A stretch of 20,788 nucleotides of DNA, taken from positions 1 through 20,788 of IMG/VR virus record IMGVR_UViG_3300030118_005809; one strand, written 5' to 3'. Source of the stretch: a virus. Positions 2,566 through 6,415 of the stretch are shown piece by piece (within the stretch, counting starts at the first letter, position 1; the number at the start of each line of letters is the position of its first letter). Under the pieces are notes generated by a model, which was not told the DNA's origin, ran no database searches, and saw only the letters and a program-made list of their open reading frames with translations. The position numbers and the translations under genes were made by a program.

Positions 2566-3597
2566 CTATTTCTTTGTGTTGCGTGTTCTTAGTTCTTTGA
2601 TTGCTGCTTCTCGTTGATCGTAGTAATAAATAACTTCAGACCAGATCAGAGACAGATCCTTCTTGAGCTTTGCGATGTCGATCTTCTTCTTTCCAAGGTC
2701 CACACACCAGAAGCGACGAGAGCCTGTCGCGTCGTGCAAGACGTTCTTCTTGTTGGTCGTTGCTACGAATACAGTCCGACGAGGGAACTTTTCATTGGCT
2801 CGCTTGTACGGGAGCCGTACATCATCGATCTTTCTGGTGAGGAATGCCTTCTCAACTTCGACAGACTTTGATCGTCTCGCCAGCTCTTGGATCTCATAGA
2901 TCAGTTTTCCTTGTATCGATTGGACCGCTTCTTTGTACTTGTCCATACTCAGCTCGGAGTCTCCGAAGTATGTAGAGCCGAACACAGCAAAGAAGCAAAG
3001 AATCTCTAATGCAGTACTCTTCCCGATTCCTTGTCCTCCGTACAAGACGAGCGTCGTGTCGACTTTGACAGGATTCTGGATTGTAGCGTGCGCCCGGGCA
3101 ACGACAGACAGCAAGAAGCGAGCCGAGTATGACTGATTAATCTTCGTGTCTTCAGCTCCGAGATAGTCGATCAAGAATCTGTGTGCTCGTCTTGGATGCT
3201 TCTTTGGGTCCCACTGGCCGCGAAGAGATTCGAAGTGATCAAGTATCGGATTGAAGCGATTCTCCTTTGCGACGAGCTCGACTGCGGACCATACTTTGTC
3301 AGCTGTGAATGCAACTCCCCATCGGTCTTCGCACTTAAGTCGGATAGAATCGATGTGATAGTCTGATATGCGCTCGTTAACATCTTGGTCATTCTGCCAG
3401 AACACCAGCTGAGCGAAGTCATCGTACCGGGCGCGACCTTGGAAAAGAGGATAATGTCTCAGCAGCTGCGTCACGTTGAACAGACTAGCGAGCACGCGAT
3501 CTCCCGAGTCTGTTCTGCGTACGCGGATCTCAAAGCCGAGATTCTGAAGAGCGACGATGCGCGCGTCCTGATTGTGTAATCTTTGTGTATTTGTCAT
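2566..3597 (-). CDS. VapE/VirE-family P-loop replicative helicase core (343 aa)
   Basis: ATG at 3597 has AGGAG upstream. Motifs in order: N-terminal DNA-associated region (1-170), Walker A GGQGIGKST (187-195), acidic Walker-B-like LIYEIQEL (232-239), the family-typical KSVEVEKAFLTRKIDDVRLPY (244-264, with RLPY), FPRRTVFVATTN (271-282) and TGSRRFW (291-297) with an Arg-finger candidate. These are the hallmarks of phage VapE ATPases, which act as replicative helicases with an adjacent primase. The protein stops soon after RRFW, earlier than usual; the missing C-terminal part is encoded by the next gene. The primase gene lies 18 bases upstream. Confidence 0.92.
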   Translation of the reverse strand: MTNTQRLHNQDARIVALQNLGFEIRVRRTDSGDRVLASLFNVTQLLRHYPLFQGRARYDDFAQLVFWQNDQDVNERISDYHIDSIRLKCEDRWGVAFTADKVWSAVELVAKENRFNPILDHFESLRGQWDPKKHPRRAHRFLIDYLGAEDTKINQSYSARFLLSVVARAHATIQNPVKVDTTLVLYGGQGIGKSTALEILCFFAVFGSTYFGDSELSMDKYKEAVQSIQGKLIYEIQELARRSKSVEVEKAFLTRKIDDVRLPYKRANEKFPRRTVFVATTNKKNVLHDATGSRRFWCVDLGKKKIDIAKLKKDLSLIWSEVIYYYDQREAAIKELRTRNTKK

Positions 3598-4595: not shown

Positions 4596-4631
4596 AAGCC
4601 TTGGATATGGGATTATCCAAGGCTTTTTTTA
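4596..4631 (+). terminator. Strong hairpin whose T-tract faces rightward
   Basis: AAGCCTTGGAT (4596-4606) pairs with ATCCAAGGCTT (4615-4625) as an 11-bp stem with an eight-base loop, followed by a T-run on the plus strand only. All neighbouring genes run leftward, so as an intrinsic terminator it would stop antisense transcription. In the sense direction it would be a 3' hairpin overlapping the resolvase stop codon (4613-4615). Confidence 0.65.
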
Positions 4632-4996
4632 TTTTCTGCGCTGCTGACAAGAACTTCGATTTGTGGATCTTCTCCTGTCGCTGCATAGAATTTTTTCGCT
4701 GTGATGCTACAGACAACAGCATCATCAGGAATCGGGAGCGCGTCAAGAACCGCTTTGACCATGTTGTCTAAGTCTGGTCTCTTGCTGTGTATGATTCTAT
4801 CGCCTTTGCGCATGTTCTTTGGACGCTTGACGATAAACGTCAGTTCTACATGCAAAGCTCCCTCTGGGACGTGCATATCTGCAAGTCTCTCTCTCATGTC
4901 CTTGATCCATTCTCTGTATTTCACGGGATAATATACGCGTCCTTGCCTTGTCACTCTGGGACGAGGACATGCGATTGGTTCTTTGTATAGTATCAT
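4613..4996 (-). CDS. rusA: RusA-type Holliday junction resolvase (127 aa)
   Basis: ATG at 4996 overlaps the upstream stop as ATGA and follows AGGAG. The frame runs to 5020, but that start lacks a site. KRPDLDNMVKAVLDAL (72-87) carries the RusA signature: D75 and D77 with N78, then K81. DD (91-92) followed by VVCSITAKKFYA supplies the third acidic position. The length is normal for RusA (about 120). The enzyme cuts four-way junctions as a dimer during phage recombination and replication. It sits directly after a SWIM protein and before the primase. All expected catalytic residues are present. Confidence 0.92.
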   Translation of the reverse strand: MILYKEPIACPRPRVTRQGRVYYPVKYREWIKDMRERLADMHVPEGALHVELTFIVKRPKNMRKGDRIIHSKRPDLDNMVKAVLDALPIPDDAVVCSITAKKFYAATGEDPQIEVLVSSAENKKSLG

Positions 4997-5268
4997 ACTT
5001 GCTCCTCTCTTGACCTGCAAAGCACTGCGTATATATGTTTACAGATTCCTCGAAAGAATGCACCTTTGCAAAGGCATACAGCATAGTCTCGCAATCCTTC
5101 CGGCTCTTCATACGTTGTCACACGATAGACCGTATCACGCGAGGACAGCACATCGGCAATCGATACGCGATACTGAATTCCGGCGATGGTCTGCTGTTCG
5201 TGCTTTATGTCAATGATGCCAACGTCCAGAGCCTTCTTTTTGATGTCGTCTGAGATTATTGGAATCAT
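4993..5268 (-). CDS. Small SWIM zinc-finger protein (91 aa)
   Basis: ATG at 5268 overlaps the methyltransferase stop as ATGA. The upstream in-frame part lies inside the methyltransferase gene. Near the C-terminus C65-x-C67, then eight residues, then C76-x-H78 form the CxCx(n)CxH SWIM pattern, flanked by YAV and IYAVL as is typical. The N-terminal 60 residues look like a small alpha/beta fold. SWIM domains bind zinc and occur in proteins linked to DNA recombination and in transposase-like proteins. The gene is sandwiched between a DNA methyltransferase and RusA and coupled to both by ATGA overlaps, so a role in recombination or DNA handling is a reasonable inference. Confidence 0.82.
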   Translation of the reverse strand: MIPIISDDIKKKALDVGIIDIKHEQQTIAGIQYRVSIADVLSSRDTVYRVTTYEEPEGLRDYAVCLCKGAFFRGICKHIYAVLCRSREEQV

Positions 5269-6077
5269 AGCATATCCTCTAATAGTCCAGACTTGACAAT
5301 CTGATGTCCTACCCACTCGGAGCACTGGGGCACAATTGCATTTCCTAACGCTTTAAGTCTGTCCACCCGGGAGGGAATCCCATCATCCACTCTACAAAGT
5401 GGGGATTTAGGCGCGTATCTTTGCCAATATGTTTTTTGTGTGTCTTTTGAATTGACTTGTATATATTGCTTGATCTTTTGTTTCGACTTGCAGAAAAATT
5501 GTTTTTTGAATCGTTGACTGTCGGAGTCGCGAGAAGCGCACAAAGAAGATTTTTTCCTCCTTGCGCGTATGGAGTTCGCCTCTCGTCTCTCGTCGGAGTA
5601 GGCAACAGCAAACCATCTTCGCCTGAGATGCGGAGCTCCAAAGTCTCTAGCGGATATAACTGTCCATTCTGTGCAATACCCGATTTCGGTAAGCGATCCA
5701 ATGACTTCACATCCTCCTCGAATAAGCACAGCTGCGACATTCTCCAAGACGACGATACTGGGTCGTAACTCGCTAATGATTCGTAACATCTCCCACCAAA
5801 GACCCGATTTCTCTCCATGTAGTCCCTTTCCTTTTCCTGCTAATGATATGTCCTGACAAGGAAAGCCACCGCATAAAATGTCTATCGGCTCTACATTGTC
5901 TTTTGTTATGTTCCTTACGTCGTTGTATATTTTTGCATCTGGCCAGTGTTTCTTTAGTACCTTCTGACAGAACGCATTCTGCTCGACTTGCCAGATTGTT
6001 TTTGCTCCCGGGATTGCTCTTTCAAGTCCAAGCTCAAAACCTCCAATCCCAGAGAATAAACTTCCTATTTTTATCAT
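5265..6077 (-). CDS. dcm: DNA C5-cytosine methyltransferase (270 aa)
   Basis: ATG at 6077 overlaps the preceding stop as ATGA with GGAG upstream. Motif I is SLFSGIGGFELG (6-17), motif IV GGFPCQDIS (70-78) with catalytic C74, motif VI LENV (111-114), motif VIII SARDFGAPHLRRRWF (142-156), and motif X RLKALGNAIVPQ (240-251). It transfers methyl groups from AdoMet to cytosine C5 in a short DNA site, probably protecting phage DNA. The segment between motifs VIII and X, which normally reads the target, is short (about 80 residues) and Lys/Arg/Ser-rich with a low-complexity look. The specificity cannot be predicted. No restriction endonuclease gene is adjacent. A long second frame overlaps its C-terminal half. 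Confidence 0.93.
   Translation of the reverse strand: MIKIGSLFSGIGGFELGLERAIPGAKTIWQVEQNAFCQKVLKKHWPDAKIYNDVRNITKDNVEPIDILCGGFPCQDISLAGKGKGLHGEKSGLWWEMLRIISELRPSIVVLENVAAVLIRGGCEVIGSLTEIGYCTEWTVISARDFGAPHLRRRWFAVAYSDERREANSIRARRKKSSLCASRDSDSQRFKKQFFCKSKQKIKQYIQVNSKDTQKTYWQRYAPKSPLCRVDDGIPSRVDRLKALGNAIVPQCSEWVGHQIVKSGLLEDML
5345..5818 (-). CDS. Overlapping alternative-frame ORF inside the methyltransferase gene (157 aa)
   Basis: This ORF lies in the +1 frame of the methyltransferase and covers its C-terminal half. ATG at 5818 follows a GGGA at five bases. Its sequence is not random-looking: YDPVSSSWRMSQLCLFEED (18-36), LPKSGIAQNGQLYPLE (43-58), ISGEDGLLLPTPTRDE (64-79), LLATPTVNDSKNN (94-106) and LNPHFVEWMMGFPPGWTDL (137-155). 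From memory, this series of motifs is common in phage and actinobacterial proteins annotated as methyltransferase or hypothetical. It could be a genuine dual-coded protein. It could also be a shadow whose sequence is fixed by the conserved motifs VI, VIII and X in the main frame. I list it at reduced confidence for that reason. Confidence 0.4.
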   Translation of the reverse strand: MERNRVFGGRCYESLASYDPVSSSWRMSQLCLFEEDVKSLDRLPKSGIAQNGQLYPLETLELRISGEDGLLLPTPTRDERRTPYAQGGKNLLCALLATPTVNDSKNNFSASRNKRSSNIYKSIQKTHKKHIGKDTRLNPHFVEWMMGFPPGWTDLKR

Positions 6078-6415
6078 TGATCGCTCCAAGCTTTGATGCG
6101 CGCTTCTTCGACTTGCCTGCGCAGCTCAGGAAGACGTATGCCTACAAGAGGAGCGAAGTATCGAGCAATGCTCTCGCCTGACAGTGCTCCGTAGGGCCGA
6201 CCATAGAACCAGAGCTTGATACTTCCCTTCTTGACTCCACAAGCGTCTGCAAAGTCCTGATCCGAGTATCGCTCTCCAGCTGCCTTCTTCAGACCGAGCA
6301 AAAACTTTTGTAAGTCAGAGCATCGTCTGTTGTTGGGTCTGCGCTTTGGAAGCTTCGTGTATTTCGGAGGCGGCTCTGTGATCAGTATCTTTTGATTGAA
6401 TTGTCTGCGGCTCAT
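6074..6415 (-). CDS. Helix-turn-helix DNA-binding protein (113 aa)
   Basis: ATG at 6415 overlaps the preceding stop as ATGA, with GGAG six bases upstream. The N-terminal 35 residues are basic and Pro-rich (PPPKYTKLPKRRPNNRR). Residues 50-90 (YSDQDFADACGVKKGSIKLW, then FYGRP) resemble a Cro/C1-like helix-turn-helix: Asp-Phe-Ala-x-Ala-Cys-Gly-Val, turn, Gly-Ser-Ile-x-x-Trp. It ends with a helical segment. It is second of two adjacent HTH genes leading into the methyltransferase, suggesting a regulatory pair for the early block. No operator was identified. Confidence 0.75.
   Translation of the reverse strand: MSRRQFNQKILITEPPPKYTKLPKRRPNNRRCSDLQKFLLGLKKAAGERYSDQDFADACGVKKGSIKLWFYGRPYGALSGESIARYFAPLVGIRLPELRRQVEEARIKAWSDQ

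Follow-up and report, generated by a model that had tools for sequence, protein, structure and literature searches.

The virus record IMGVR_UViG_3300030118_005809, analysed over its full length of 20,788 nucleotides (the window, 20.8 kb), carries on its minus strand a gene for a C5-cytosine DNA methyltransferase, here called A, and a second open reading frame (ORF), here called B, that lies wholly within the ORF of A in the +1 frame. Gene A (5265-6089, minus strand) encodes the catalytic, large-domain subunit with motifs I-VIII and X, as indicated by its matches to PF00145 (E 1.2e-46) and PHROG 363 (4e-79), by an AlphaFold2 (AF2) model and by comparison with M.HhaI. Motifs I, IV (PCQ), VI (ENV), VIII and X are present on a Rossmann-like large domain, as in members of PF00145. 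Motif IV, with the catalytic cysteine, is located at 5853-5861 (minus), outside the overlap with B, and is invariant among relatives; motif VIII (ISARDFGAPHLRRRWFAVAY, 5598-5657, minus) is dual-coded with residues 54-73 of B, and motif X (RLKALGNAIVPQCSEWVGHQIV) lies at 5295-5360 (minus). As listed, the ORF of A begins at TTG 6089 and comprises 274 amino acids. Its real start is probably the ATG at 6077, which shares an ATGA with the stop codon of the upstream gene, and the ATG at 5268, which forms an ATGA with the stop codon of A, is the probable start of the gene located 3' of A. With such overlaps at both of its ends, A belongs to a tightly packed gene block.

The first-pass annotation of this DNA, made from the letters alone, had reported a 157-codon +1 ORF within the methyltransferase gene, and B (5345-5818, minus strand) is present as quoted there, with 157 amino acids and an ATG start at 5818. 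It begins at the second base of codon 91 of A and ends at codon 248, so that the same-strand overlap of about 470 bp lies opposite motifs VI-VIII, the linker of A and the start of motif X. The motifs that the annotation likened to those of phage and actinobacterial proteins are real: B matches PHROG 1008, 'DNA methyltransferase' (5e-23, residues 13-118 of B), and is found by tblastn in 53 phage records. No named family was matched in Pfam and NCBIfam, nor was any solved structure matched by the profile of B, its glycolipid transfer protein matches (E 0.03) being taken as chance. Two parts of the product are of particular concern here. The first is a target-recognition-like region (5420-5647, minus) with LPTPT / ATPTVND repeats, where the frame of A is mostly an unconserved linker; the second is motif IX (RLNPHFVEWMMGFPPGWTDL, 5354-5413, minus), comparable with RxLSPRECxRLQGFPDxF in single-chain enzymes. 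Conserved positions among 29 B sequences include G8, P44, G47, G52, P73-T74-P75, P139, M146-G147, P149 and W152. The B of another locus (L034:3056-4051) has four LPTPT-type repeats as against two in the window, and this number, which differs between relatives, may reflect recognition modules. Directly 5' of the ATG of B lies a purine-rich ribosome-binding stretch (aggaaaaggaaagggactac, 5819-5838, minus), which also encodes AGKGKGL of A and contains AAAGGGA at 5829-5823, 4 nt upstream of the ATG.

The coding capacity of the +1 frame was analysed in an alignment of the window and 28 relatives of A (29 sequences), using synonymous resampling of the codons of A as null model (500 resamplings for the stop counts); the sequences are related, hence p-values are nominal. 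In the overlap, 152 +1 stops were expected in the 29 sequences (122 in the lowest resampling) and 11 were seen, all of them the terminator of B itself, just after GFPxGWxD, with no internal stop. For the window alone 8.4 +1 stops were expected under resampling, the probability of finding none being 0.000, while the +2 frame, used as control, had 272 stops with 314 expected. At the four-fold degenerate columns of A, the third-base pairwise identity among the 23 closer sequences was 0.63 inside the overlap (51 columns) versus 0.33 outside (43 columns; Mann-Whitney U test, p 1.4e-7), and the conserved residues of A showed lower codon diversity inside the overlap than outside (p 0.003). For D235, D236 and G237 of A, a single codon per residue is found throughout the 23 close relatives, the choice that WMMG in B imposes. 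Given A, the similarity of the B frame exceeded that of resampled sequences in 28 of 28 pairs (z 4.9-10.7) and was always above that of the +2 frame. Moreover, 31 of 33 close loci retain the ATG of B, when 17.2 would be expected from the residues of A, and in several relatives a B-frame stop directly precedes it. The four signals (stops, synonymous sites, excess similarity of B and retention of the ATG) agree in direction. The second frame is open in the homologues and synonymous variation is suppressed only within the overlap, as in same-strand overprinted pairs; the region is dual coding, with purifying selection on both frames.

Resampled sequences still yield 16-32% identity in the +1 frame, as would be seen if the ORF were a non-coding shadow of the conserved residues and codon usage of A. 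That explanation is contradicted by the synonymous-site result, and also by the stop counts, the excess conservation of B, a stop placed right after motif IX, and the fusions and stand-alone copy described below, which leave it with a negligible likelihood. The first-pass annotation had offered a dual-coded partner protein as one of two options, and had named frequent second-frame stops in homologues, unsuppressed synonymous variation and matches that are mere shadows of methyltransferase genes as signs of the contrary. The partner protein is supported on all three counts: the 29 sequences have no internal stop, synonymous sites vary less within the overlap, and B shows much more conservation than a shadow of A would.

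The motifs of one enzyme are divided between the two products. The end of B, RLNPxFVEWMMGFPxGWTDL, follows the pattern that motif IX has in single-chain enzymes such as L225 (RKLTPRECWRLQGFPDWAF) and L226 (RMLSPRECFRLQGFPDSF), which have 5 stops in their own +1 frames in the motif IX region. In A, no target-recognition domain (TRD) and motif IX were found between motifs VIII and X: pairwise identity there is 0.1-0.2, and residues 173-240 lack conservation and are disordered in the AF2 model. The confidence of the model was high over residues 1-165 and 250-270, with a predicted local distance difference test score (pLDDT) of about 45 over 173-217. This model resembles the large domain of M.HhaI (Z 24.8, 195 residues), and the profile of A aligned with M.HhaI over 13-180 and weakly over 298-319, skipping the small domain, where the TRD and motif IX are located in that enzyme. 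TRD-like repeats and a motif IX were recognized in B, and to judge from their sequences A and B jointly carry the full motif set.

The locus very probably specifies a C5-cytosine DNA methyltransferase that is split by nature into two subunits, the gene of one nested in that of the other. A would be the large, catalytic domain, in which motifs I-VIII are followed by a read-through linker and motif X, and B, translated from the internal ATG (5818) in the +1 frame of the same mRNA, would supply the small domain with target-recognition segments and motif IX, a role proposed from its motif content. Both chains would assemble as a heterodimer into one active, sequence-specific enzyme that would methylate the phage DNA, most likely as protection from host restriction, since protecting phage DNA is the usual role of phage methyltransferases. 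The other option of the first-pass annotation, a frame switch of the target-recognition part during evolution, stands insofar as nearly all relatives encode the TRD and motif IX in the +1 frame, with a linker in the frame of A. It does not stand as a pseudogene-like switch, as selection acts on both frames at once along motifs VI-VIII and IX/X. For many overprinted ORFs of viruses, the function bears no relation to that of the overlapped gene (PMC6195259), and neither Pfam nor NCBIfam gives B a name; B could be a real but functionally separate protein, for instance anti-restriction or regulatory, with A working without it. However, this is improbable, as the motif IX equivalent is in B and none is in A, no small domain is modelled in A, natural A-B fusions exist, and in some layouts motifs IX and/or X move between frames.

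Some observations weigh against the split-enzyme interpretation. Modelled on its own with AF2, B gives a poor result (pLDDT 64, predicted template modelling score 0.22), and a fold search with this model gave no match; this may mean that B folds only together with A. The GGGA ribosome site proposed in the first-pass annotation exists, but Shine-Dalgarno-like purine runs before B were seen 30 times with 30.2 expected given A, showing no excess, because the run is dictated by the conserved AGKxxG motif of A. In distant relatives the open frame of B often reaches tens of codons upstream, which makes its start ambiguous. Finally, motifs I-VIII and X in one ORF with the N-terminal region of B and motif IX in the +1 ORF were found in 181 of the 211 collected loci, a figure that is neither from a random sample nor a prevalence, as most of these loci were gathered via the motif IX of B.

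Less biased tests were provided by an A-seeded scan of viral loci and by a sample of one bacterial class. Nearly all A-seeded complete viral loci had B, and in 289 genomes of the bacterial class all 8 places with B overlapped an A gene, one of them without a scored motif IX. Among the 80 loci taken from bacterial genomes, 63 have the layout, and the titles of the bacterial records name Pseudomonadota, Actinomycetota, Bacteroidota, Bacillota, Planctomycetota, Gemmatimonadota and others. Annotation is uneven. Firecracker, Lilbooboo and Kristoff have two 'DNA methylase' genes annotated that overlap; Spikelee, S-H1 and an Acinetobacter phage have A alone, and across phages and bacteria B usually remains unannotated.

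The layout varies among relatives. In phiBT1, Lilbooboo, Firecracker, Kristoff and Shivanishola, A ends past motif VIII and the overlapping B holds the TRD, IX and X; the loci with IX and X in B (L043, L048, L049, L223 and L227) are annotated as one or two DNA methylases. In L009-L012 and in Streptomyces (L219), the TRD-like part alone is in the +1 frame, with IX and X in the frame of A. Because all required parts are held by A and B of one mRNA, and loci of the phiBT1, Lilbooboo and Firecracker type carry even motif X in the B frame, B could be part of a longer, single chain in which I-VIII, TRD and IX are joined through a programmed +1 frameshift out of A. Such a shift past motif VIII would need no conserved N-terminal half of B, and an earlier one would lose VI-VIII; yet the half of B opposite VI-VIII is itself conserved (G8, W25, P44, G47, G52), its ATG is kept as stated above, and B-frame stops lie directly 5' of the ATG in several relatives. 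A frameshift is thus unlikely, to about the same degree as a functionally separate B.

Plasmid proteins of Vibrio, Alteromonas and Aliivibrio are in-frame fusions in which A (I-VIII, X) is followed by B (TRD and IX), which places motif IX on the C-terminal side of X. These marine plasmid fusions (L213:2107-3351, L220:601-1833, L221:529-1812 and L222:556-1809) have 15-33 stops in their +1 frame, and by hhalign the N part of the fusion matches A (100%, 7.5e-41) and its C part B (97.4%, 1.1e-11). A scan of viral contigs for a fusion of the Vibrio type found no relative, and a phage search with the Vibrio fusion returned mainly A-like parts. In a metagenome-assembled genome of Actinomycetota (L158), a normal A/B pair is followed downstream by a second copy of B (2001-2657), opposite which the A frame has decayed and lacks motifs VI-VIII; this stand-alone B is a possible extra recognition subunit. 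The plasmid fusions and this free copy show B to be a protein domain that accompanies A. These loci probably represent a widespread, largely unannotated class of C5-methyltransferases, to which many phages and bacterial phyla contribute and in which the TRD is a separate +1-frame protein encoded over the catalytic gene, motifs IX and X are free to lie in either frame, and B is sometimes duplicated alone, as combinable recognition subunits, and sometimes fused again to A.

Further arrangements were seen. The canonical single-chain methyltransferase of a Streptococcus phage (L225:995-1477) is overlapped by a +1 ORF that contains LSDILEEEVDERYFLS and weakly matches the N-terminal region of B (5e-5), possibly a further, different overprint. 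In phage Llama (L050:1718-2477), an apparent single indel breaks the frames of A and B each, so that the annotated genes 74 and 75 exchange reading frames. L162, L175, L181 and L050, whose layouts resemble frameshifts in drafts or single sequences, were kept out of the evidence.

In the bacterial enzyme M.EcoHK31I, the gene for the small subunit is said to lie inside the large one, in another frame. C5-methyltransferases of two polypeptides are already known in M.AquI and M.EcoHK31I (PMC3404938, PMC3439449). In the latter (specific for YGGCCR) the large polypeptide contains motifs I-VIII and X and motif IX is solely in the small one (PMC3404938), the same division as in the window, although the likeness joins a bacterial enzyme, taken from its description, to a phage gene by motif layout. 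The predicted TRD of M.EcoHK31I is in the large subunit (PMC3404938), whereas in the window the conserved TRD-like repeats appear to be in B and the corresponding stretch of A is unconserved and disordered. M.AquI (CYCGRG) also consists of two chains, split between VIII and IX (PMC3404938); unlike M.AquI, which has both IX and X in the second subunit, the window keeps X in A. The phiBT1, Firecracker and Kristoff loci are M.AquI-like in having IX and X in the second chain, but with a long overlap. In the single-chain M.HhaI and M.HaeIII, the TRD and IX lie between VIII and X in one frame with no nested gene. PHROG 1008 indicates that the B frame is already within some phage annotations, but it is named just DNA methyltransferase, and the nesting in PHROG 363 (A) is not stated there. 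As judged from motif content, the best explanation of the window would be a variant of the M.EcoHK31I kind that differs in having the TRD-like part in B. This precedent and the likely role of B as motif IX or small-domain subunit go beyond the first-pass annotation. A phage methylase paper (PMC11855218) concerns an out-of-frame HNH insertion, a different matter. No description of the breadth or layouts of the family was found in the literature searched, subscription papers and REBASE lying outside that search, and both the breadth and the layout series appear to be new to it.

The gene block around A also holds, on the minus strand, a small gene (4993-5268) with a CxC...CxH pattern (CLCKGAFFRGICKH) and no Pfam match, a RusA Holliday junction resolvase (4613-5020, 1.2e-17) and a VapE-like domain protein (2566-3597, 2.8e-54).

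A same-strand overlap of about 470 bp whose two products bear motifs of one enzyme is unusual, because overprinted proteins are, in the usual account, without functional relation to the overlapped gene. The nested layout explains why phage 'DNA methylase' genes are inconsistently annotated, with A only, as two genes, or with B mostly absent. Moreover, many cloned 'methyltransferase' ORFs may be without their recognition subunit if they are recoded or codon-optimised. The family offers a large number of natural examples in which to study dual coding, split enzymes and the exchange of recognition domains.
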